NCBI GenBank assembly: GCA_016191165.1
Contig: JACPPF010000028.1
Coordinates: 1 to 35,003 of the forward strand
Source of the DNA: Planctomycetota bacterium
GTDB lineage: Bacteria; Planctomycetota; Planctomycetia; Gemmatales; Gemmataceae
DNA: 35,003 nt
Direction: 5' to 3'
A program made the position numbers and the translations under genes. How positions within the stretch are numbered: position 1 is the stretch's first letter; every line of letters starts with the position of its first letter. Under the pieces are notes generated by a model. The model did no database searches and had not been told where the DNA came from. It saw only the letters and a list, made by a program, of their open reading frames with translations. Positions 13,768 to 24,260 of this stretch are shown here, piece by piece.

Positions 13768-16700
13768 ATGAAACTCCGCTTTACCGTCATCGCCCTGGCC
13801 TTTACGTTCGCCGTGGCATTCCCCAGCGCCCCGGCCCAGCAGAAGAAGCCCAAAAAGCCGCTGATCCCGCATGGCCAAAGCAAGCCGCCCAACGACGCGC
13901 GCACCCCGCAGGAAGCGCTCAAGCATATGCAAGTGCCGCCGGGGTTTCGCGTGGAACTCGTCGCGGCCGAACCCGACATCGTCAATCCGGTGGCGATGAC
14001 ATTCGACGAACGTGGCCGCATCTGGATCACCGAGTCGATCGAGTATCCGCGCCGCAGCGCCGGGCCTGGCAAAGATCGTGTCAAGGTTCTGGAAAGCACA
14101 AAGGGCGACGGCAAGTTCGACAAGATCACCACCGTCATCACCGGCCTCAATATCCCCTCCGGCATCGCGGTCGGCCACGGCGGCGTCTGGGTCGCCAACT
14201 CGCCGGACATACTCTATTACCCCTTCCAGGATTTTGCGGGCGCTAAACTGGGAAAACCGCAAGTGGTCGTCACCGGCTTTGGCCGATTCGACACGCACGA
14301 ACTGCCCAACTCGCTCACCTGGGGTCCCGATGGCTGGCTCTATGGCCTCAACGGGGTCTTCAATCGCAGCGTCGTCAAGCAAGACGGCAAGACGTTCGAT
14401 TTCACGTGCGCCCTCTTCAAGATTCATCCGAAAACCAAGAAGTTCGCAATCTTCTGCGAAGGCACGTCGAACCCGTGGGGCCTCGCCTTCAACGACAACG
14501 GCGACGCCTTCGTCAGCGCCTGCGTCATCGACCACCTCTGGCACCTCACCGAGACCGGCTACTACCATCGCCAGGGCGGCCCGTATCCGCCCTACACCTG
14601 GAAGATCGGCTCCATCGTCAAGCACAAGCACCAGAAGGCGGCCTACTGCGGCCTGTGCTGGTTCGACTCCGACGCCTATCCGCCAGAATACCGCGAGAAA
14701 ATGTACATGGGAAACATCCACGGCGGCGCCATCAATTGCGATGAGCTGACAAGAGATGGCTCGACCTACTTTGCAAAACCCGCCCTACGCCCAGGGCCGA
14801 AAGGCCCTGGGATCGGCGAAGGCAGCAACTTCCTGCTCGCCAATGACGCCTGGTTCATGCCCGTGTCGCAAAAGGTCGGCCCCGACGGCTGCCTGTACAT
14901 CCTCGACTGGTACGACCGCTACCACTGCTACCAGGACGCCAACCGCGACCCCAAAGGCATCGACCGCTTGAAGGGCCGGCTGTATCGCGTCGTGTACAAG
15001 GACTACAAGCCGGCGGGGAAGATTGATTTGAACGATGAGAAGAATGCAAAACTAATCGAGAGAATTATGAGCCCGAACGTCTTTGTGCGAGAGACGGCTC
15101 AACGCATCCTACAGACGCGACTCAAAGACGAGCCTCCAACATCGCAAGCGGTGCAGGAGGCCTGTATTGATTTGCAAGGATTCGTAGATAAAGCGAAGGA
15201 TCGAAAAACCCGCCTGCACGCTTTATGGATAATCCACAGCTTGAATGACTATATCCATGGAAGTTATCTCAGGCACCCTGACCCAATTGTTCGTGCGTGG
15301 GAAGCGCGTTCTGTCGGCTACCAACAGGAAATCGACCGAAAAACCTACAGCAAACTTGTCGCTCTGGCAAAATATCGTTCCCCAGAGGTGCAACTCCAGG
15401 TGGCGATTGCGGCGCGCAAGTTCGAGGCTGATGCCATGCCTGTGCTGCTCGACGTTCTCACCCACTGCGGCGACGACAAGCTGATTCCGCACATCGTCTG
15501 GCAGAACCTGCATCCGCTTCTGGAAAAAGACGGCGAACGCTTCCTGACCTTGGCCGGCAAGATTGATCTCGCCAAGGCGCCAGGCGTCGCCAAGGTGTTG
15601 CCGCGCGCCATCGATCGCATCCTCGGCAACGCCAAGGGCGACCCGGCGGCGGTCGTGCGATTCATCGACCGGCTCACGAATGAAAAGAAGGACGCCACGG
15701 CGGGCCTCTGCCTTGCCGCACTCACCAACCGCGTGCAGACGGGCGAAATCAAGGGCCCGGCCCTCGCGCGGCTCAAGGAGGACATCACCCCGTCACTGGC
15801 GAAACTCATGACGCGAAAGGACGCCGGCCCGCAGGCACTCTACCTGCGCATTAGTCTGGGCGATACCGCTTGGCTCAAGTTCGCTCACGAGTCCTTGCAA
15901 TCCTCGCCGGTGGAAAGCGAACGCGTGCTGCTTCTCGATGCGTTGATGACAGGGCATCCTGATTCCCTCAAGACATCCGTTCCAGACCTGCTGCGCCAGG
16001 CCAATCCAAAGATGCCCACGCTACGCGGCCAGGTGTTGAGCCGACTGGGCAAGGCGAGTGACCCCTGGATTGCTACCATCGTGCTCGATCTCTATCCGAG
16101 GTTTACGCCCGACGAGCAGGCCAAATCGATCGAACTCTTGACCCAACGCCCGAACTGGGCCAAGTCCCTCTTTAATGAAATCGCCTCCAAGAAGATCAGC
16201 AAGGACGTCATCAACGTAAATCAAGCCCGCCGCTTGCTTGCGAGCAAGGACGCCGAGCTGCGCAAGCTCATCGAGAAGCACTGGGGCATTCCGCGCAACG
16301 CACGCAATCCCGAACGTGAGCGCATCGTCGCTCAGATGCGCGAACTTTACACCAAGACGCCGGGCGATCCGAAACGCGGCGCGCCGATCTTCAAGAAGCT
16401 CTGCGCCCAGTGCCACAAGATTCATGGCGAAGGCGTCGATGTCGGCCCGGACATCACGTCGAATGGCCGGGCCGACTTCAATCAGCTGCTGTCGAACGTC
16501 TTCGATCCAAGCCTGGTGATCGGCTCGGGCTATCAGGCGGTCACCGTCAACACCAAAAACGGCCAAACGCTGACGGGTTTGATTGTGGAAGACAACAAGG
16601 AGCGCGTGGTCCTCAAGGTGCAAGGCGGCGAACTGAAGACCATCGCTCGCAAGGACGTGGACGAACAGTTCACGAGCAAGCTGTCGATGATGCCCGAGGA

Positions 16701-16812
16701 TCTGGAAAAACAGCTGCGGCCCCAGGAGATCGTCGATCTGCTGGCGTATTTGAGCCTTGACCGGTCGCCGGAGGATCCGAAGGCAAAGAGGATACCTGGC
16801 GTGCCGCGTTGA
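13768..16812 (+). CDS. PVC-type CxxCH protein: beta-propeller, HEAT repeats, cytochrome c
   Basis: The protein has 1014 residues. A signal peptide ends near AFPSAPAQ (about 24). Residues about 50-415 form the planctomycete/verrucomicrobial sugar-dehydrogenase-like propeller (VPPGFRVELVAAEPDIVNPVAMTFDERGRIWITES; GPDGCLYILDWYDRYH). Residues about 425-860 look like HEAT-type helical repeats. A C-terminal cytochrome c domain has CAQCH at 879-883 and a distal MMPEDLEKQLRPQEIVDLLAYL. It is probably a periplasmic electron-transfer or sugar-oxidising protein. A perfect hairpin at 14790-14811 encodes a local RPGPKGPGIGEG stretch. The region about 15000-15330 is AT-richer with rarer codons than the rest. 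Degraded copies of its 3' end follow at 18095-18205 and 18984-19043. Confidence 0.93.
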   Translation: MKLRFTVIALAFTFAVAFPSAPAQQKKPKKPLIPHGQSKPPNDARTPQEALKHMQVPPGFRVELVAAEPDIVNPVAMTFDERGRIWITESIEYPRRSAGPGKDRVKVLESTKGDGKFDKITTVITGLNIPSGIAVGHGGVWVANSPDILYYPFQDFAGAKLGKPQVVVTGFGRFDTHELPNSLTWGPDGWLYGLNGVFNRSVVKQDGKTFDFTCALFKIHPKTKKFAIFCEGTSNPWGLAFNDNGDAFVSACVIDHLWHLTETGYYHRQGGPYPPYTWKIGSIVKHKHQKAAYCGLCWFDSDAYPPEYREKMYMGNIHGGAINCDELTRDGSTYFAKPALRPGPKGPGIGEGSNFLLANDAWFMPVSQKVGPDGCLYILDWYDRYHCYQDANRDPKGIDRLKGRLYRVVYKDYKPAGKIDLNDEKNAKLIERIMSPNVFVRETAQRILQTRLKDEPPTSQAVQEACIDLQGFVDKAKDRKTRLHALWIIHSLNDYIHGSYLRHPDPIVRAWEARSVGYQQEIDRKTYSKLVALAKYRSPEVQLQVAIAARKFEADAMPVLLDVLTHCGDDKLIPHIVWQNLHPLLEKDGERFLTLAGKIDLAKAPGVAKVLPRAIDRILGNAKGDPAAVVRFIDRLTNEKKDATAGLCLAALTNRVQTGEIKGPALARLKEDITPSLAKLMTRKDAGPQALYLRISLGDTAWLKFAHESLQSSPVESERVLLLDALMTGHPDSLKTSVPDLLRQANPKMPTLRGQVLSRLGKASDPWIATIVLDLYPRFTPDEQAKSIELLTQRPNWAKSLFNEIASKKISKDVINVNQARRLLASKDAELRKLIEKHWGIPRNARNPERERIVAQMRELYTKTPGDPKRGAPIFKKLCAQCHKIHGEGVDVGPDITSNGRADFNQLLSNVFDPSLVIGSGYQAVTVNTKNGQTLTGLIVEDNKERVVLKVQGGELKTIARKDVDEQFTSKLSMMPEDLEKQLRPQEIVDLLAYLSLDRSPEDPKAKRIPGVPR
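14790..14811 (+). repeat. Perfect hairpin repeat inside the PVC cytochrome gene
   Basis: CCCAGGGCC and GGCCCTGGG flank GAAA, giving a 9-bp GC stem with a GNRA tetraloop inside the coding region. It encodes part of PALRPGPKGPGIGEG, where a loop insertion relative to relatives is likely. Confidence 0.6.
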
Positions 16813-16819
16813 TTTTTGA

Positions 16820-16862
16820 CATCCTTGCATTTCTGTAGTCTGACTACAGAAATACAAGGATG
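16820..16862. repeat. CATCCTTG palindrome 1 before the ATPase gene
   Basis: CATCCTTGCATTTCTGTAGTC folds onto GACTACAGAAATACAAGGATG with one mismatch. It is the first of two tandem related palindromes between the cytochrome stop and the ATPase start. Confidence 0.8.
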
Positions 16863-16867
16863 TGTGA

Positions 16868-16897
16868 TTGACAAACATCCTTGCATTTTGGTAGAAT
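16868..16897 (+). promoter_or_regulatory. Promoter of the ATPase gene, overlapped by a palindrome
   Basis: TTGACA (16868-16873) and TAGAAT (16892-16897) are 18 bases apart, 26 bases before the ATG. The second palindrome covers the spacer and the -10 box, so a protein bound to it, or a hairpin in the transcript, could control expression. Confidence 0.6.
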
Positions 16898-16916
16898 AAC
16901 TACCGAAATACAAGGA
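16876..16916. repeat. CATCCTTG palindrome 2, overlapping the promoter
   Basis: CATCCTTGCATTTTGGTAG pairs with CTACCGAAATACAAGG around AATAA. Its outer arms match palindrome 1, while the inner stem differs on both sides together (CTGTAG/CTACAG against TGGTAG/CTACCG), so pairing is kept. It ends at the AAGGA ribosome site of the ATPase gene. Confidence 0.8.
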
Positions 16917-16923
16917 ACCCACG

Positions 16924-18075
16924 ATGATCCATCGCGAGCTTCACCTGAAGGCCGTGCACGCCGCCCTGGCGCACAATCCGATCTGCGCCATCCTGGGGCC
17001 GCGGCAGTGCGGCAAGACCACCCTGGCCCGGCAAGTCGGCCAACTCAAGGCGTCGCATTATTTCGACCTGGAGACCGCCGTCGGCCGAACGCGCCTCGCG
17101 GATCCCGATCTGGCCCTCACGCCTCTCAAGGGTCTGATCGTCATCGACGAAATTCAGCGGCTACCGGAATTATTCACGGCCTTGCGTCCGCTGGCGGATC
17201 GGCGCCCGCGGCCGGCCAGGTTCTTGATCCTGGGCAGTGCTTCACCCGAGGTGGTGCGCGGAGCGTCCGAATCCCTGGCGGGACGAATCGCTTTCGTGGA
17301 TCTCGGCCCTTTCGATTTGCGCGAAGTGGGCATCGCGAAACAACGCCGCCTGTGGCAGCGCGGCGGCTTTCCGCGCTCCTTTCTGGCTCGCTCCGCCACG
17401 CTGAGCTTCGACTGGCGCCAGGATTTCATCCGAACTTTTTTGGAGCGGGATATTCCCCAGCTGGGCATTCGCATCCCGGCCGACACGCTGCGGCGCTTCT
17501 GGATGATGGTCGCCCATTACCACGCCCAGATCTGGAACGGCGCCGAACTGGCCCGATCCCTGAGCGTGACCGAACACACGGCACGCAGCTACCTTGACCT
17601 TCTCACGGCGACGTTCCTTCTGCGGCAGCTTCCCCCCTGGTTCGAGAACCTGGGCAAACGTCAATACAAGGCGCCCAAAGTGTACGTCCGCGACTCCGGC
17701 TTGCTTCACGCCTTGCTGGCGTTGCAAAACCATGCGGACCTGCTAGGGCATCCCAAGTATGGCGCTTCCTGGGAGGGCTTCGCTCTGGAGCAAGTCTTGA
17801 GCATTACCGGTGCGGCCCAGGCGTTCTTCTGGGGAACGCACGCCGGCGCCGAATTGGATTTGTTGTTGATTCGACGAGGCAAACGGTTTGGCGTGGAGTT
17901 CAAGGCCAGCGCTGCCCCGGCCATGACCAAGTCGTTGCACGTGGCACTTGGCGATCTAAGGCTTGCCCAGGCCTGGATCGTTCATCCTGGCGAGGAAACC
18001 TATCGAATCCACGAACGCGTCGAAGCGATTGCCTTGCGGGACGTGCCGGCCGCCTTTGATCGTTTAGCGGTATAG
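16924..18075 (+). CDS. AAA_14/DUF4143 ATPase
   Basis: The 383-residue protein has a P-loop ATPase domain with Walker A GPRQCGKT (25-32) and Walker B GLIVIDEIQ (70-78), then LILGSASPEV as the sensor region. A winged-helix/DUF4143 part follows from about 175 (LARSLSVTEHTARSYLDLLTATFLLRQLPPW). The C-terminus has GAELDLLL..FGVEFKAS, the D...ExK pattern of the nuclease-like fold typical of DUF4143. AAGGA eight bases before the ATG supports the start. Many such ATPases occur as isolated, horizontally spread genes with unknown targets. Here it stands alone between the cytochrome gene and a duplicated piece of that gene's 3' end, behind two palindromes. Confidence 0.92.
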   Translation: MIHRELHLKAVHAALAHNPICAILGPRQCGKTTLARQVGQLKASHYFDLETAVGRTRLADPDLALTPLKGLIVIDEIQRLPELFTALRPLADRRPRPARFLILGSASPEVVRGASESLAGRIAFVDLGPFDLREVGIAKQRRLWQRGGFPRSFLARSATLSFDWRQDFIRTFLERDIPQLGIRIPADTLRRFWMMVAHYHAQIWNGAELARSLSVTEHTARSYLDLLTATFLLRQLPPWFENLGKRQYKAPKVYVRDSGLLHALLALQNHADLLGHPKYGASWEGFALEQVLSITGAAQAFFWGTHAGAELDLLLIRRGKRFGVEFKASAAPAMTKSLHVALGDLRLAQAWIVHPGEETYRIHERVEAIALRDVPAAFDRLAV

Positions 18076-18094
18076 TTGGGGCCAAAGGAGCCGT

Positions 18095-18205
18095 GCGGAG
18101 AAGCAGTTGCGGCCCCAGGAGATTGTCGGTCCGCTGGCGCACCTGAGCTTTGACCGCTCGCTGGATGATCCGAAGGCGAAGAAGATACCGGGGGCGCCGA
18201 GGTGA
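18095..18205 (+). pseudogene. Degraded copy of the 3' end of the PVC cytochrome gene (tail 2)
   Basis: Read in frame it gives AEKQLRPQEIVGPLAHLSFDRSLDDPKAKKIPGAPR and a stop. The true C-terminus ending at 16812 has EKQLRPQEIVDLLAYLSLDRSPEDPKAKRIPGVPR. DNA identity is roughly four in five by eye. There is no start codon or other part of the gene before it, so it is a fragment left by duplication. Confidence 0.85.
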
Positions 18206-18215
18206 TAGGAAAGCG

Positions 18216-18243
18216 TTGACAACGCGCTCAAACGTGCTACTTT
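18216..18243 (+). promoter_or_regulatory. Promoter of the DUF5678-like/retropepsin-like pair
   Basis: TTGACA (18216-18221) and TACTTT (18238-18243) are 16 bases apart, 37 bases before the ATG at 18281. The -10 box is the same as in the pilin promoter at 20834-20862. Confidence 0.5.
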
Positions 18244-18280
18244 GAAAGCGCGCCAACCTCGTTCAGGCGGGAGGTCGATC

Positions 18281-18520
18281 ATGGTCACGCAACAGTATCG
18301 CCAAAACCGCGCTCGGTTTTCGCACGCCGACCTCGCGAAGTATCAAGGGATGTGGATCGCCTTCAGCTCCGACGGTTCACGCATTGTCGCCAGTGCGGAA
18401 ACGGTGGACGCCCTGGAGGATCAACTCGCCGCATGTGGTCAAAATGCCCAGCAGGTGGTTCTGGAATGGCTCGCAGGGCCGGACGATGATATCATGCTGG
18501 GCGCGGGAGAATCCATGTGA
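18281..18520 (+). CDS. Small DUF5678-like protein
   Basis: The 79-residue protein reads FSHADLAKYQGMWIAFSSDGSRIVASAETVDALEDQLAACG, the pattern of DUF5678 ('W.A.S.DG..IVA.g.t...l...l'). GGAGG is about seven bases upstream of the ATG. Its stop lies inside ATGTGA, overlapping the start of the protease-like gene, so the two are translationally coupled. Such small proteins are often encoded beside retropepsin-like proteins; whether it is a partner or inhibitor is unknown. Confidence 0.75.
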   Translation: MVTQQYRQNRARFSHADLAKYQGMWIAFSSDGSRIVASAETVDALEDQLAACGQNAQQVVLEWLAGPDDDIMLGAGESM

Positions 18521-18987
18521 CCTTGCGTTTTGCCTATCAGGACGAACCACTGACCGGCCCCGCGCCGCCGTCGTTATCCAAAGGTACAACCGTTCGTTGG
18601 CGGCCATTGATTCCGTTGACGATAATCGGGCCTACCGGAATCACACGCGATTTCGGCCGAGCCGTTTTCGATCCAGCCGCCGACGACACGGTGCTGCCCA
18701 TCGACACGGCCCTGCGCCTGGGTGTTCGGCTCCTTGCTCCCACGGGACACGGTGTGCGCTGGGGCGGCCAACTTCACGCCTTGCGATTCGGGGAGGTGGA
18801 TTTGCTGCTGACCGACAATTTCACAGTCTGGTGCTGGCGGGCCGTGGTCGGTTTCTCGCCGGCGCCTCTGCGCTATCCTATCCTGGGCCAATCTGGTTGC
18901 CTCCAATTCATCGACGCTCGCTTTCTCGGCGCCAATCTAATAATCGAGCTGGACGCCAACCGCCATTTTCCGGGCACTCAAACTTGA
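18517..18987 (+). CDS. Retropepsin-like aspartic protease homologue with altered active site
   Basis: The 156-residue protein has the fold signature of small retroviral-type aspartic proteases: a first strand region RPLIPLTIIGPTG, then AVFDPAADDTVLPIDTALRLGV, and a C-terminal PILGQSGCLQFIDARF matching the usual 'iLG..gfl..f...f'. The catalytic DTG/DSG is DPA here: the Asp is kept but Thr/Ser and Gly are replaced, so activity is doubtful. The start is GTG at 18517, overlapping the upstream stop, with GGGAGA six bases before it. Residues after about 145 run into the third cytochrome tail remnant. Confidence 0.72.
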   Translation: MTLRFAYQDEPLTGPAPPSLSKGTTVRWRPLIPLTIIGPTGITRDFGRAVFDPAADDTVLPIDTALRLGVRLLAPTGHGVRWGGQLHALRFGEVDLLLTDNFTVWCWRAVVGFSPAPLRYPILGQSGCLQFIDARFLGANLIIELDANRHFPGTQT

Positions 18988-19043
18988 CCGCGAACCTGCC
19001 GGACGATCCGAAGGGGCGACAGATTCCGGAGACGCCGCGGTAA
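18984..19043 (+). pseudogene. Degraded copy of the 3' end of the PVC cytochrome gene (tail 3)
   Basis: The frame gives LPDDPKGRQIPETPR and a stop, matching SPEDPKAKRIPGVPR at the end of the cytochrome. The DNA upstream also matches (TTGACCG, GATCCGAAG) but with a small indel. It overlaps the end of the retropepsin-like gene by four bases. It is shorter and more diverged than tail 2. Confidence 0.65.
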
Positions 19044-19060: not shown

Positions 19061-20086
19061 ATGAAGTCCATTCGATTGATCATCGGCGTGGCGGGGGTCT
19101 GGATGTGCGCGGCAATAGCGCACGCCCAAGTTATTAGGGAGCTTGACCCAAAGGTGATTGAGGCCTGGAAAAAAGCCGGGGCAGGCGCCAGTTGGTGTTG
19201 GTACGACAGTCTTGGGCGTTTGAAGACCCTGAAAACGAGACCGAACGAATCTGCCGCCCTTCCGACGTTCTTTTGCCCTAAATTCAAGCCAGAATCCATC
19301 GCGAAACTACCCGATCCGGGGCAGCCGTTTGGAATTATTGTTCGGGGAACCGGAGTAACTGATCGGGAACTCAAAGAATTTGCCAAGTTCACGAGCCTGT
19401 GCCTACTCGTCCTTTCAGGTCAAAGTGTGCTTGGCGGCGATGGAGCGGTGACGGACTCGGGACTGACTGCTTTGGCCGGGCTCAAGAATTTGCAGACCCT
19501 GGCTCTTGAAAGATCCGACGTTACGGACGAGGGCATGAAAACGATTGGGAAGCTCGCGAGGTTACGCCACCTTGATTTGTGGGGAGTAGGTATCACCGGA
19601 AGGGGTCTGAAGGAATTGGCGCCGCTCAAAAATTTGCGGTGTTTGATGTTGAGTTCCGTGGGAGATTCGGACCTCAAGGAAATCACCCGGTTCACCGACT
19701 TGGAGACCCTAGTCCTGAGTGCGGCAGAGGTGACCGACAAGGAAATGCGTCAGCTGAAGAGCCTTAAGAAACTGCGGACACTTAACCTTGGGCGAACGAA
19801 AATCACCGACATCGGCCTAAAAGAGATCGCCACTCTGGCAGCGCTTGAGAACCTTTCCGTACACCGCACAAAAATAACGGACGCCGGCCTGAAAGAGATA
19901 GCGGCGTTGCCAAGGCTCCAGTTCCTTAACCTTCAAGAAACCGCAGTCACCGACGCCGGTTTGAAACTTGTCGGCACTATCAAGAGCCTGCGGAAACTGG
20001 ACCTGATTGCGTCGAGGAAAGTTAGCAAGTCCGGCATCGAACACCTGAAAAAGGATCGTCCCGACCTAAACGTTGTCGGGCCATGA
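19061..20086 (+). CDS. Exported leucine-rich repeat protein
   Basis: The 341-residue protein has a signal peptide (MKSIRLIIGVAGVWMCAAIAHAQ). From about residue 95 it consists of about nine repeats of roughly 24 residues with the pattern 'L.tL.L..t.ItD.GLKEIA.L', for example LRTLNLGRTKITDIGLKEIA. This resembles RNI/internalin-type LRR proteins common in planctomycetes. GGAGGA lies seven bases before the ATG. It probably mediates protein binding outside the cytoplasm; the partner is unknown. It is less GC-rich than its neighbours and follows the cassette region. Confidence 0.88.
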   Translation: MKSIRLIIGVAGVWMCAAIAHAQVIRELDPKVIEAWKKAGAGASWCWYDSLGRLKTLKTRPNESAALPTFFCPKFKPESIAKLPDPGQPFGIIVRGTGVTDRELKEFAKFTSLCLLVLSGQSVLGGDGAVTDSGLTALAGLKNLQTLALERSDVTDEGMKTIGKLARLRHLDLWGVGITGRGLKELAPLKNLRCLMLSSVGDSDLKEITRFTDLETLVLSAAEVTDKEMRQLKSLKKLRTLNLGRTKITDIGLKEIATLAALENLSVHRTKITDAGLKEIAALPRLQFLNLQETAVTDAGLKLVGTIKSLRKLDLIASRKVSKSGIEHLKKDRPDLNVVGP

Positions 20087-20222: not shown

Positions 20223-20621
20223 CTACCTCCGTTGGCGTCGGCGGGTGCTGCCGCTGTTGCCGCCGGAGCCTGACCCACCAGAGTTGCCTGAGCTACCGCT
20301 CACTGATCCGCTTCCAGAGTCGCCGGTTCCGCTGCTGCCGGAGGTCGAGCCCGAGCCGCTGCTGGTTGAACTGGAGCCGCTGGTTGAACTTGAACCGCCT
20401 GAACCGGTGCCGCTGGTCCCGCCCGCCGGCAAGCCCGACGTATCGCCCTTGGCGCCGTCGGCGGCGGCCAGAAACGACTCGTTGGCGTTCTTCCCGAGGG
20501 TGGTAACCGGCAGAGTGCAAACCGCGACAATGAGCGCCAGCGTCACCGCGTATTCCACGGCGGTCGGTCCGTCCTCGTCACGCATAAAGGCGACGAGGCT
20601 GCGATAGAGTTGTTTGCTCAT
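20223..20621 (-). CDS. Flp/type IVb-like pilin with Ser/Gly tail
   Basis: The 132-residue protein begins MSKQLYRSLVAFMRDEDGPTAVEYAVTLALIVAVCTLPVTTLG, the Flp pilin pattern: short basic leader, Gly before the cleavage point, Glu five residues after, and one hydrophobic helix. Ordinary Flp pilins are about 50-70 residues. Here some 80 further residues follow, almost all Ser, Gly and Thr, ending STRRRQRR. The start at 20621 is set by AAGGA upstream and the pilin leader. It is preceded by a c-di-GMP riboswitch and a promoter. No tad assembly genes are in the window. Confidence 0.85.
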   Translation of the reverse strand: MSKQLYRSLVAFMRDEDGPTAVEYAVTLALIVAVCTLPVTTLGKNANESFLAAADGAKGDTSGLPAGGTSGTGSGGSSSTSGSSSTSSGSGSTSGSSGTGDSGSGSVSGSSGNSGGSGSGGNSGSTRRRQRR

Positions 20622-20677
20622 GGGTGGTCCTTTTTGATTTTGCGCAGGGGAAGCCAGTGTTACGGGTAACGTGCGAA

Positions 20678-20701
20678 GGCAAATCGCCGTCGGCGTTTGC
20701 C
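20678..20701 (-). promoter_or_regulatory. Hairpin between riboswitch and pilin start
   Basis: GGCAAACGCCGA folds on CGGCGATTTGCC (minus strand) with one unpaired base. It lies just 3' of the aptamer and could be part of the expression platform, but it has no T tract, so it is not an ordinary intrinsic terminator. Confidence 0.4.
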
Positions 20702-20707
20702 CCACCA

Positions 20708-20806
20708 CCCCTTCGGTAACCTGGCGACCCTGCGAAGTCCGCTTTTGGACGGACCAGGGCCCATGGCTTTGCGTCCCCGCCTTGCGACGGGTTTGCCGTG
20801 TCGAGG
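20708..20806 (-). promoter_or_regulatory. Cyclic-di-GMP-I (GEMM) riboswitch aptamer
   Basis: Read on the minus strand it has the class I consensus in order: ACGGCAAACC, a stem CCGTC-GCAA-GGCGG with a GNRA tetraloop, GGGACGCAAAGCC, a second long stem-loop (GGCCCTG..CAGGGTC), and GGTTACCG as the closing receptor. This is the well-known c-di-GMP-binding RNA. It lies 87 bases upstream of the Flp pilin ATG and just downstream of a promoter, so it should set pilin expression by c-di-GMP. Whether it turns expression on or off is not visible. Confidence 0.92.
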
Positions 20807-21128: not shown

Positions 21129-24100
21129 ATGACCTATCGCATTCTTCTTTGCAGCATCTCAGCCATCCTCGCTTCCACCTTGGTGTGGGGATTGGCGTCG
21201 CAACCCGGCCCCTCCCGGGGGCCTGCTCGCCAGGAAAAGGCCTTCGAATGCCGCTGGACTCCGACGCCAATCAAGCTCACGGGCAAGGGAACCGACCCCG
21301 CGTGGAAGAACGCCCAGACCATCGATAACTTCTATGTTCCCTGGCTTGGCGCCAAAGCTCGGCCCGCCAGGACGAAGACCAAAGCGAAACTACTCTGGGA
21401 CCGCGACTTCATCTACTTTTTCGCCGACATGGAAGACGCGGACCTCTATGCCGACATCAAGGAACATAACGGCAATCTCTGGTACAACGATGTGTTCGAG
21501 TTGTTCTTCAAACCCGCCGACGACAAGCCGGGCTATTACGAATTCCAGATCAACCCCGCGGGCGCCGTGCTCGACGTATTCATGCCGCGCCGCAACGCAG
21601 GCGGCTTTGATCGCTTCAAGAACGACACGAAGTTTCACGTCGAGGCCAAGGTTCACCTGCGCGGCACGCTCAACAAGTGGACCGACCGCGACGACGGTTG
21701 GTCGGTCGAGGGGCGAATTCCGTGGACCGACTTCATGCGCACCGGAGGCCGGCCCGACCGTGGCGAGAAGTGGAAGTTCGCCCTGTGCCGCTACGATTAC
21801 TCGGTCGATTTTGAAGGCCCGGAACTTTCCACCTGCGCCCCCCTCCAGAAGGCAAACTTCCATGCCTACGAGGACTACGCGACGCTGACATTCGTCGGCC
21901 CGGAGAAGAGCAAGAAAAAGGCCGCGCCGGCCCAGTTCATCCCGATGACGACATCGCGCGTCGTCGGATTTCCCGACGGGCCCGCGCCCTATCAGGTCCA
22001 GCGAGTTTATCCCGACCTGAAGATGGCCTACCCACAAATCACGCACCTGATCCCCGGAACCGATCAACTGCTCGTCGTCACATCGCCCAACAATGGCACC
22101 TCCACGAAAATCTATCGCATGAAGGACGATCCGAAGGTCAACACCTGGGATCTCTGGTTCGACTCCGGCGAGGTGGTCTACCAGCTTGCCTTCCATCCCA
22201 AATTCGCCGAGAACGGGTATGTTTTCGTCGGCTCCAACGGCAACACCCCCACGCCGATGACAACAACCCCAAAGGGCCAAAAAGCCGGCAAGAAAAAAAC
22301 GCGCCTGACGCGCTACACGATGCAGACGAAGGCGCCCTTCAAGATCAACCCGGCGTCGGAAAAGGTCATAATCGAAGTCGTCTCCGACGGGCACAACGGC
22401 GCCGCCCCCGTCTTCGGGCCTGACGGCATGATGTATCTGACAACCGGCGATGGCACCAGCGATTCCGACACCGATCTCGTAGGGCAGGACATGAGCACGC
22501 TCCTGGCGAAGGTGTTGCGCATCGATGTCGATCGACCCGCCGCGCCCAAAAACTACTCGATCCCGAAGGACAACCCCTTCATCAACCTGAAGGGCGCCCG
22601 GCCCGAGATATGGGCGGTTGGCCTGCGCAACCCATGGCGCTCCTGTGTCGATGAAAAAACGGGGCATATCTGGGTCGGTCAAAATGGCCAGGACATGTGG
22701 GAACAGGCGTTCCTCGTCAAGAAAGGCGACAATTACGGCTGGAGCGTCATGGAGGGCAGCCACCCTTTCTATTTAACGCGCAAGCTGGCGCCAGTGCCGC
22801 TGACCAAGCCAACAGTCGAGCATCATCATTCCGAAGCGCGCTCGCTCACCGGCGGCGGCGTCTATTATGGCAAGAAATATCCCGAGCTCGTCGGCCACTA
22901 CATCTACGGCGATTACTCCACCGGTAAAATCTGGGCTGTCAAACACGATGGAGCAAAGGTTGTTTCCCATCGTGAAATCTGCGACTCACGCCTGACGATC
23001 ACCGGCTTCGGCGTCGATAGCCAAGGCGAAATCCTGATCGCCGACTTCCAGCGCGACAAGGGCGGGCTCTACACCTTTGTCCCCACACCGAAGGAAAAGC
23101 AAACCACGATCTTTCCAAGGAAGCTAAGCGAGAGCGGCCTGTTCAAGAATGTCAAAGGCCACATCATGCAGGACTCGCTGATTCCCTATTCGGTCAACGC
23201 CGTGCTCTGGTCCGATGGCACGGCCAAGATGCGCTGGATCGGGCTGCCGAAGGGTGCGCAGATCGACTATCGCAAGAGCCGCGGGTGGGACCTGCCCGAT
23301 CAGACGGTGATCGTCAAGTCGTTTTACCTGGACACGATCGAAGGCGATCCGAAGTCACGCCGCTGGATCGAGACGCGCTTCCTGACTCGCCAGGGAACCG
23401 AGTGGTACGGCTATTCCTACGCCTGGAATGATGCCGAGACCGAAGGCACGCTCGTGGAATCCAGGGGAGCGGATCGCGAGTTCACGATCAAGACCGCGAC
23501 CGGGCAGAAGAAACTGAACTGGCGCTACCCGAGCCGATCCGAGTGCATGGTCTGCCACAGCCGGGCCGCCAACTATGTGCTCGGCTTCAGTGAATTGCAA
23601 TTCAATCATGTGCATACCTACCTCCCGTCTCCCTCTGGGAAGGGGGCTAACAATCTTCTCCCCTCTCCCACTGGGAGAGGGGCCGGGGGTGAGGGCGAAC
23701 GCGAAAACCAGCTCGCTGTCTTCGAGCGTCTGGGTTTGTTCAAGAGCTTCAACTGGGCGTCCGAGACGCACGATCGAATTCGCAAGGAATTGAAGGCCAA
23801 GGGCCGAACGACCAAGGAGATTAACGAGGAGCTTGCACAACGTACCGCGGGCCCCGGACAGCGCACGCCCAAATCGTCCTCGCTGCTGCCCTTCGCGCCG
23901 GACAAGATCAACAAGCTGGTCGATCCCTACGACAAGACGCAAGACCTGACCTTGCGGGTGCGAAGTTATCTGCACAGCAATTGTTCGCAGTGCCATGTTG
24001 AAGCAGGCGGCGGCAACTCGCAGATGGAACTCGAATTCACCAAGGCGCTCACGGAAATGAGGATCATCAACGTCAAGCCGGTGCATGACACGTTTGGACT

Positions 24101-24260
24101 CAAGGACGCCAAGCTGGTGGCGCCCGGTCATCCCGAGCGGTCGGTCCTCCTGCACCGCATCAGCCATCGCAACAAGGGGCACATGCCGCCGCTGGCGACG
24201 CGCGTGGTCGATCAGCAAATGGTGGACACGATCCGCGAGTGGATCCGGACGATGAAGTGA
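21129..24260 (+). CDS. CBM9-like / PQQ sugar-dehydrogenase-like / diheme cytochrome fusion
   Basis: The protein has 1043 residues. After a signal peptide (about 1-24), residues about 45-255 form a CBM9-like/DOMON carbohydrate-binding domain (DRDFIYFFADMEDADLYADI; WSVEGRIPWTDF). Residues about 290-655 resemble glucose/sorbosone dehydrogenase propellers (LAFHPKFAENGYVFVGS; PVFGPDGMMYLTTGDG; EIWAVGLRNPWR). Residues about 660-1043 match the HNE_0200-type (TIGR03806) cytochrome family with CMVCH and CSQCH, and end in GHMPPLAT..DQQMVDTIREWI. It should bind and oxidise a sugar outside the cytoplasm and pass electrons to its own haems. A repeat at about 23621-23700 adds PSPSGKGANNLLPSPTGRGAGGEG inside the C-terminal domain. 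The ribosome site is weak. Confidence 0.88.
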   Translation: MTYRILLCSISAILASTLVWGLASQPGPSRGPARQEKAFECRWTPTPIKLTGKGTDPAWKNAQTIDNFYVPWLGAKARPARTKTKAKLLWDRDFIYFFADMEDADLYADIKEHNGNLWYNDVFELFFKPADDKPGYYEFQINPAGAVLDVFMPRRNAGGFDRFKNDTKFHVEAKVHLRGTLNKWTDRDDGWSVEGRIPWTDFMRTGGRPDRGEKWKFALCRYDYSVDFEGPELSTCAPLQKANFHAYEDYATLTFVGPEKSKKKAAPAQFIPMTTSRVVGFPDGPAPYQVQRVYPDLKMAYPQITHLIPGTDQLLVVTSPNNGTSTKIYRMKDDPKVNTWDLWFDSGEVVYQLAFHPKFAENGYVFVGSNGNTPTPMTTTPKGQKAGKKKTRLTRYTMQTKAPFKINPASEKVIIEVVSDGHNGAAPVFGPDGMMYLTTGDGTSDSDTDLVGQDMSTLLAKVLRIDVDRPAAPKNYSIPKDNPFINLKGARPEIWAVGLRNPWRSCVDEKTGHIWVGQNGQDMWEQAFLVKKGDNYGWSVMEGSHPFYLTRKLAPVPLTKPTVEHHHSEARSLTGGGVYYGKKYPELVGHYIYGDYSTGKIWAVKHDGAKVVSHREICDSRLTITGFGVDSQGEILIADFQRDKGGLYTFVPTPKEKQTTIFPRKLSESGLFKNVKGHIMQDSLIPYSVNAVLWSDGTAKMRWIGLPKGAQIDYRKSRGWDLPDQTVIVKSFYLDTIEGDPKSRRWIETRFLTRQGTEWYGYSYAWNDAETEGTLVESRGADREFTIKTATGQKKLNWRYPSRSECMVCHSRAANYVLGFSELQFNHVHTYLPSPSGKGANNLLPSPTGRGAGGEGERENQLAVFERLGLFKSFNWASETHDRIRKELKAKGRTTKEINEELAQRTAGPGQRTPKSSSLLPFAPDKINKLVDPYDKTQDLTLRVRSYLHSNCSQCHVEAGGGNSQMELEFTKALTEMRIINVKPVHDTFGLKDAKLVAPGHPERSVLLHRISHRNKGHMPPLATRVVDQQMVDTIREWIRTMK
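23621..23700 (+). repeat. Repeat-derived insert inside the fusion gene
   Basis: The core CCCCTCTCCC/GGGAGAGGGG (23660-23669 and 23673-23682) is a perfect hairpin with a 3-base loop, followed by GGCCGGGGGTGAGGG. Its opposite-strand translation LTPGPSPSGRGE is a familiar sign of a repeat found in many genomes. The frame stays open through it. Confidence 0.7.

Follow-up and report, generated by a model that had tools for sequence, protein, structure and literature searches.

Copies of a gene's 3' end beside small defence- and addiction-like cargos in a planctomycete contig: possible scars of successive insertion

Integron gene-cassette arrays can carry toxin-antitoxin cassettes, and genomic islands can integrate at the 3' ends of genes. 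Among restriction-modification (RM) genes, insertion with long target duplication has been described (Nobusato et al., 2000, as cited in PMC1643837 and PMC3031569), and chromosomal RM genes resist replacement by allelic DNA (PMC3874152). In Escherichia coli, re-circularised linear DNA integrates through a RecA-dependent single crossover, leaving partial gene duplications of 109-950 bp (PMC3240628). The open question addressed here is how small toxin-antitoxin or defence genes without a transposase move and accumulate in genomes. The locus in question lies in a stretch of 35,003 nt from a Planctomycetota bacterium of the family Gemmataceae (assembly GCA_016191165.1, contig JACPPF010000028.1), one whole contig of 35 kb that we call the window. 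In it, an intact gene for a haem-binding protein (the host gene) is followed by two small cargos, each of them followed in turn by an isolated copy of the host gene's 3' end (a tail). We propose, with moderate confidence, that the three tails, counting the gene's own, are the scars of at least two successive additive insertions placed directly behind the intact host gene by single crossovers of the RecA type. The elements concerned are the following.

13768..16812, plus strand: host gene, PVC-type haem-binding CxxCH protein with a DUF7133 domain, a HEAT region and a cytochrome c domain; intact
16704..16813, plus strand: tail 1, the host gene's own 3' end including the stop codon
16924..18075, plus strand: cargo 1, AAA_14/DUF4143 ATPase, the PADLOC candidate phage-defence gene PDC-S01
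18097..18206, plus strand: tail 2, a decayed copy of the last 105 coding nt plus the stop (110 nt, 82% DNA identity to tail 1)
18281..18520, plus strand: cargo 2a, DUF5678-like small protein (Pfam DUF5678, E 0.025, below the cut-off)
18517..18987, plus strand: cargo 2b, retropepsin-like aspartic protease homologue, assigned by family alignment
18998..19043 (start approximate), plus strand: tail 3, a shorter and older relic of the host gene's 3' end

The host gene matches the profiles of Pfam DUF7133 (E 4e-71), TIGR02604 (E 2e-83) and TIGR02603 (E 2e-35). A first-pass annotation, made from the sequence alone, had claimed that the 3' tail of this gene recurs after the ATPase gene and again after the DUF5678-like/retropepsin-like pair. 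Alignment recovered these three sites, and so did a degenerate pattern of the last 33 nt of the host gene, which hit exactly the three tails in the window and nothing in 100 shuffles; the placement of the ATPase between tails 1 and 2, and of the pair between tails 2 and 3, was borne out by the coordinates and domain matches. Tail 3 is 75% identical to tail 2 over 44 nt and 62% identical to tail 1 over 45 nt, the latter weak by itself, and it matches the orthologous tail of G002, a genome of the same genus, with 90% identity over 42 nt (E 2e-11) and 87% over 45 nt. Tail 2 starts 21 nt past the stop codon of cargo 1 (junction 18076..18096) and tail 3 about 10 nt past that of cargo 2, so that each block is compact. 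Downstream of the host gene no part of it other than the 3' end is duplicated. We rejected the idea that the tail belongs to a widespread repeat family: the window's own genome (7.2 Mb, 183 contigs) holds no tail copy beyond these three, and in 89 relatives, mostly metagenome-assembled genomes taken one per species, every strong tail match lay in a full-length gene, the exceptions being tail 2 itself and a single match in G023, where the reading frame has 125 aa and lies on another, small contig.

Dating by divergence, as the first-pass annotation had suggested, orders the tails outward from the gene by increasing age, from the live tail 1 through tail 2 to tail 3; resting on small numbers (105 and 45 nt), it gives a direction only and no clock. 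Tails 1 and 2 share five derived bases that are missing from six relatives, and therefore split on the window lineage's own branch. The private changes of tail 1 are five synonymous and one amino-acid-altering; of those in tail 2, two are synonymous and four replace residues that are nearly invariant among the relatives. Tail 3 carries none of the shared derived bases, and all three of its private changes alter the amino acid. This pattern of private changes, mostly synonymous in tail 1 and amino-acid-altering in the copies, argues for a selected gene and decayed copies; judged by these substitutions, tail 2 is a decayed relic of the window lineage's own host gene, which remained under selection while tail 2 drifted.

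Orthologues of the host gene, drawn also from a second genome collection, occur throughout the genus and family, and the DNA behind them is not constant. In G005 a homologue of the ATPase (77% amino-acid identity) lies directly past the host stop codon with tandem palindromes of its own, so a stand-alone arrangement of host gene and ATPase exists within the genus. G003 has the same downstream gene as G005 and no ATPase, and its intergenic DNA differs from the window site. In G006 and G002 other genes come first, and the right-hand gene of the window follows at 1.2-1.8 kb from the host gene, while G001 has a different neighbour again. The position behind the host stop codon therefore varies between species. 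In G026, a gene resembling a REP-associated tyrosine transposase lies right behind the host stop, flanked by two identical 53-nt repeats (L144 3210-4203): another insertion at this position.

The arrangement is found at other genes as well. Retropepsin homologues were gathered from 149 relatives and from 397 genomes of the class, more than 70 loci were read, and isolated 3'-tail copies were found beside DUF5678-like/retropepsin pairs for five further genes in four other genomes.

L129: tail of a DUF1553 gene, 31 nt, 94% identity, between tandem pairs
L132: tail of a GH3 gene, 53 nt, 87%, pair inverted
L134: tail of an unnamed gene, 106 nt, 97%, pair inverted; at a contig end, possibly an assembly effect
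L231 (G180): tail of recG, 198 nt, 99%
L260 (G390): tail of a DUF4915 gene, 105 nt, 93%

Six isolated tails stand in 0.59 Mb around pair loci, against none that was convincing in about 1.6 Mb of control DNA (about 1.13 Mb around host-gene orthologues and 0.48 Mb of other regions); the scan hits were classified by eye, and the L129 and L134 cases come from separate locus comparisons. The first-pass annotation had looked to relatives for the same tail with other cassettes behind it. For the host-gene tail itself, the 89 relatives gave no isolated copy, the G023 match aside; what does recur is the order of gene, cargo and tail behind unrelated genes elsewhere. The duplication is confined to the 3' end at the window, recG, DUF4915, GH3 and DUF1553 loci. 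The repeats flanking the inserts measure 31, 53, 105, 106, 110 and 198 nt, their sequence and length are different at each host gene, and no common core was seen among them, no formal core search having been made. At L125, L127 and L129 the pairs themselves stand as tandem, diverged copies. A pair in G203 (L225) is flanked by a direct repeat of 90 nt (96%; 1-90 and 941-1030) that is intergenic and not a gene tail, and it was not counted; repeats in L124, L226, L227, L234 and L264 were likewise left out, being either repeat families or something other than gene tails.

The DUF4915 locus is the closest parallel to the layout of the window. In G390 the DUF4915 gene is followed by an antitoxin gene and a PIN-family toxin gene (TIGR00305), a tail copy with a stop codon, and the DUF5678/retropepsin pair. 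In the congeneric G364 the gene, the toxin-antitoxin genes and a tail copy are present, with the same left junction, and in G273, G419 and G285 the DUF4915 gene lacks the toxin-antitoxin genes. The layout at L260 is consistent with an insert bordered neatly by two copies of a single continuous target; in the window the copies have aged too far for such a reading. The tail copies of G390 and G364 are each closer to the live tail of their own genome than to one another, and the sequences suggest an exchange between live and relic DUF4915 tails. The relic in G364 (L317 3553-3663) follows the live tail closely over 84 nt, but its last 24 bases are abruptly different, diverged though still alignable; it ends in LIFVDDERA instead of LMLIEDE, as though two alleles had recombined.

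At the recG locus the configuration is more complex. recG and mqnE are convergent neighbours whose ends lie about 25-52 nt apart in G398 and G174. In G180 the order is recG, the pair, the end of mqnE (its last 86 nt, 88%), the end of recG (about 200 nt; 198 nt at 99%), other DNA, and mqnE. With the mqnE end joined to the recG end, a simple target-site duplication cannot be the source. An IS256-like transposase region (L231 4825-6202) interrupts the recG relic of G180, which has thus served as a landing place for an insertion sequence.

In the mechanism that we favour, a fragment from a foreign or sister strain would carry the 3' part of the same host gene with a small cargo behind it. Its ends would be rejoined, by circularisation or concatenation, and it would enter by one homologous crossover of the RecA type within the gene end, giving as its product an intact gene, the new cargo, the displaced and truncated old gene end and the former downstream DNA. 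In the window the pair would have been added first and the ATPase later, which would yield the observed order and ages: as each insertion would fall directly behind the gene, the newest cargo, the ATPase, would stand nearest to it and the scars would be older with distance. At the recG locus, a closed fragment of recG end, pair and mqnE end and one crossover in the recG end would give the observed junction. An addiction- or defence-like cargo would favour addition over plain allelic replacement, and the cargos are perhaps retained through addiction-like behaviour, considering that a toxin-antitoxin pair and a candidate defence gene are among them and that RM genes offer a precedent. The crossover, the donor molecule and the selection that would keep both cargos are read back from the end products. 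Among the ideas of the first-pass annotation, the one best matched by the 3'-only copies, the lack of tandem copies in relatives, the tail 2 relic and the same order at unrelated genes is that of an insertion which copies the 3' end while the gene itself stays intact. Its likening of the locus to integrating elements does not hold: the main open reading frames of the 35-kb contig yielded neither an integrase nor a transposase, the duplicated length runs from 31 to about 200 nt, and at recG the copied DNA takes in part of the adjacent gene, so that ordinary recombination is likelier than a dedicated att-site mechanism.

Several points weigh against this proposal. The relics at the recG locus differ in age (99% vs 88%, with the mqnE piece frameshifted), which needs gene conversion or two events. 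The ATPase of G005 has no second tail, which means that this cargo does not come with one as a rule. Sliding-window identities along the host gene and trees of its first and second halves gave no clear sign of another origin for its 3' half, and a recombinant host gene, tried as a candidate, was dropped on the same comparisons. At the window locus neither a donor molecule nor a circle nor a copy of recent origin was observed; the tails there are old (18-38% diverged), too old for microhomology at the junctions to be read. Finally, addiction behaviour is only putative both for the pair and for the ATPase.

An alternative that we consider possible, if unlikely, is insertion with a long and variable target duplication by some transposition-like or repair process, for which no donor copy of the host gene would be needed. 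Its products would look alike, a small cargo enclosed by direct repeats of 31 to about 200 nt, and such duplication has been reported for all types of RM systems (PMC3031569; PMC1643837). However, the joined ends of mqnE and recG are impossible from a single target duplication, and in G005 the same ATPase stands behind the same gene with no duplication.

More tentatively, addiction and defence modules of Planctomycetes may spread as units of gene end plus module, the host gene end providing the homology for RecA-mediated entry and exit. The tail copies of G390 and G364, resembling as they do their own live tails, would fit such an exchange of modules. If true, the system would parallel integron cassettes without needing an integrase: tails would pile up as scars, and modules could leave and re-enter as circles.

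We find it improbable that a unit of gene end plus cargo was duplicated in tandem, by unequal crossover or replication slippage, and that one cargo was then lost or replaced. Such an origin is suggested at L129, where the order is tail-pair-tail-pair-pair and the repeat unit starts inside the upstream gene, but the successive cargos are unrelated both in the window and at L260, and a whole cargo would have to vanish precisely each time. Very unlikely, in our estimation, is the other idea of the first-pass annotation, that full-length tandem paralogues decayed to 3' tails and that cargos came to occupy the space between them. In its favour, decay is seen in tails 2 and 3, and many of these genomes have several copies of related PVC haem proteins; but the 3' end is the only host-gene fragment downstream, the full-length tandem host genes that the annotation had named as the sign of simple decay were found at the tails' places in none of the relatives searched, and the identical 3'-only pattern stands at other genes. 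Hardest of all to credit is a site-specific integrative element with an attachment site in the gene's 3' end and an integrase since lost. The restored gene end and displaced old end do match the classical outcome of site-specific integration, but no integrase was found on the contig, the host genes differ and share no core that we saw, the inserts are of about 1 kb, and the pair varies in orientation (inverted in L132 and L134).

The remaining features of the locus concern the control of the cargos and their neighbours.

16816..16921, plus strand: two tandem palindromes (about 16819-16863 and about 16875-16916), each preceded by TTGACA; promoter/operator-like region of the ATPase gene
19061..20086, plus strand: leucine-rich-repeat protein gene, directly behind tail 3
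21129..24260, plus strand: right-hand flanking gene (CBM9/GSDH domains), the one also found downstream of the host gene in G006 and G002

The claim that each cassette has its own TTGACA promoter just behind a tail stands for the ATPase, which is preceded by a strong sigma-70-type promoter-like site inside the tandem palindromes (16868-16897, 11/12 matches). Before the pair, the TTGACA at 18216 has only a poor -10, and behind tail 3 no promoter of the TTGACA type was found. In most of the DUF4143/AAA_14 ATPase genes compared (L079-L091) a near-perfect palindrome overlaps the promoter, tandem in the window and in G005; in L083 (G093) and L086 (G096) the ATPase gene stands between two nearly identical palindromes, with the look of an autoregulatory or terminal element. 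The idea that the ATPase family itself causes the duplications was considered and rejected: a tail copy accompanies only one of 13 homologous loci, that of the window, and the palindromes that flank the gene at two others are a feature of another kind.

As for the pair, the DUF5678 match reaches the Pfam cut-off in one homologue, the L260 copy, and Asp_protease_2 is matched by 11 of the 14 retropepsin homologues, the window member not being among them. This protein (18517-18987) reads DPAADDT where most homologues have D(T/S)GADDT, and from this motif it may be inactive as a protease. A literature search returned nothing on DUF5678/retropepsin pairs in Planctomycetes. Further downstream, a c-di-GMP-I-GGC riboswitch (Rfam RF03167, 65.6 bits) at 20711-20806 on the minus strand lies directly upstream of a Flp/Fap-pilin-like gene (20223-20708).

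Tail scars are readable marks of single acquisitions, which record their order and relative age and the fact that the function of the host gene was kept, and they can be searched for genome-wide. If the insertion mechanism were confirmed, homology to a neighbour's 3' end and the resistance of the cargo to replacement would suffice to build defence clusters with no dedicated enzyme.

Compared with known systems, the locus recalls integron arrays in its compact cargos, some with their own promoters, and in the repeated element between them; unlike there, the repeats are coding ends of a particular upstream gene and not attC sites (no dedicated attC model having been run), and an integrase is missing from the main open reading frames. 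With islands at gene 3' ends it shares the intact gene and the partial copy of its end at the far border, and it differs in having no tyrosine or serine recombinase that we could find, cargos of about 1 kb, no common core seen and many host genes. The PDC-S01 family is listed in PADLOC as a candidate only; the window ATPase matches its models (best E 7.5e-84), and phage protection by it is putative. The E. coli experiments (PMC3240628) predict a partial duplication of the homologous gene beside the new DNA, of 109-950 bp there and 31 to about 200 nt here, although they were performed with plasmid DNA whereas our events are deduced from genome scars. The pattern that the locus appears to resemble most closely is the insertion of RM genes with long target duplication, with which it has in common a small cargo of a selfish or defence type, long and variable direct repeats, and intact neighbouring genes. 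What would be new is the kind of cargo, which is not RM but a DUF4143 ATPase, a PIN toxin-antitoxin or a DUF5678/retropepsin pair; the duplicated piece, which is mostly a gene's 3' end, with events stacked in series; and the junction at one locus of the ends of both neighbouring genes.

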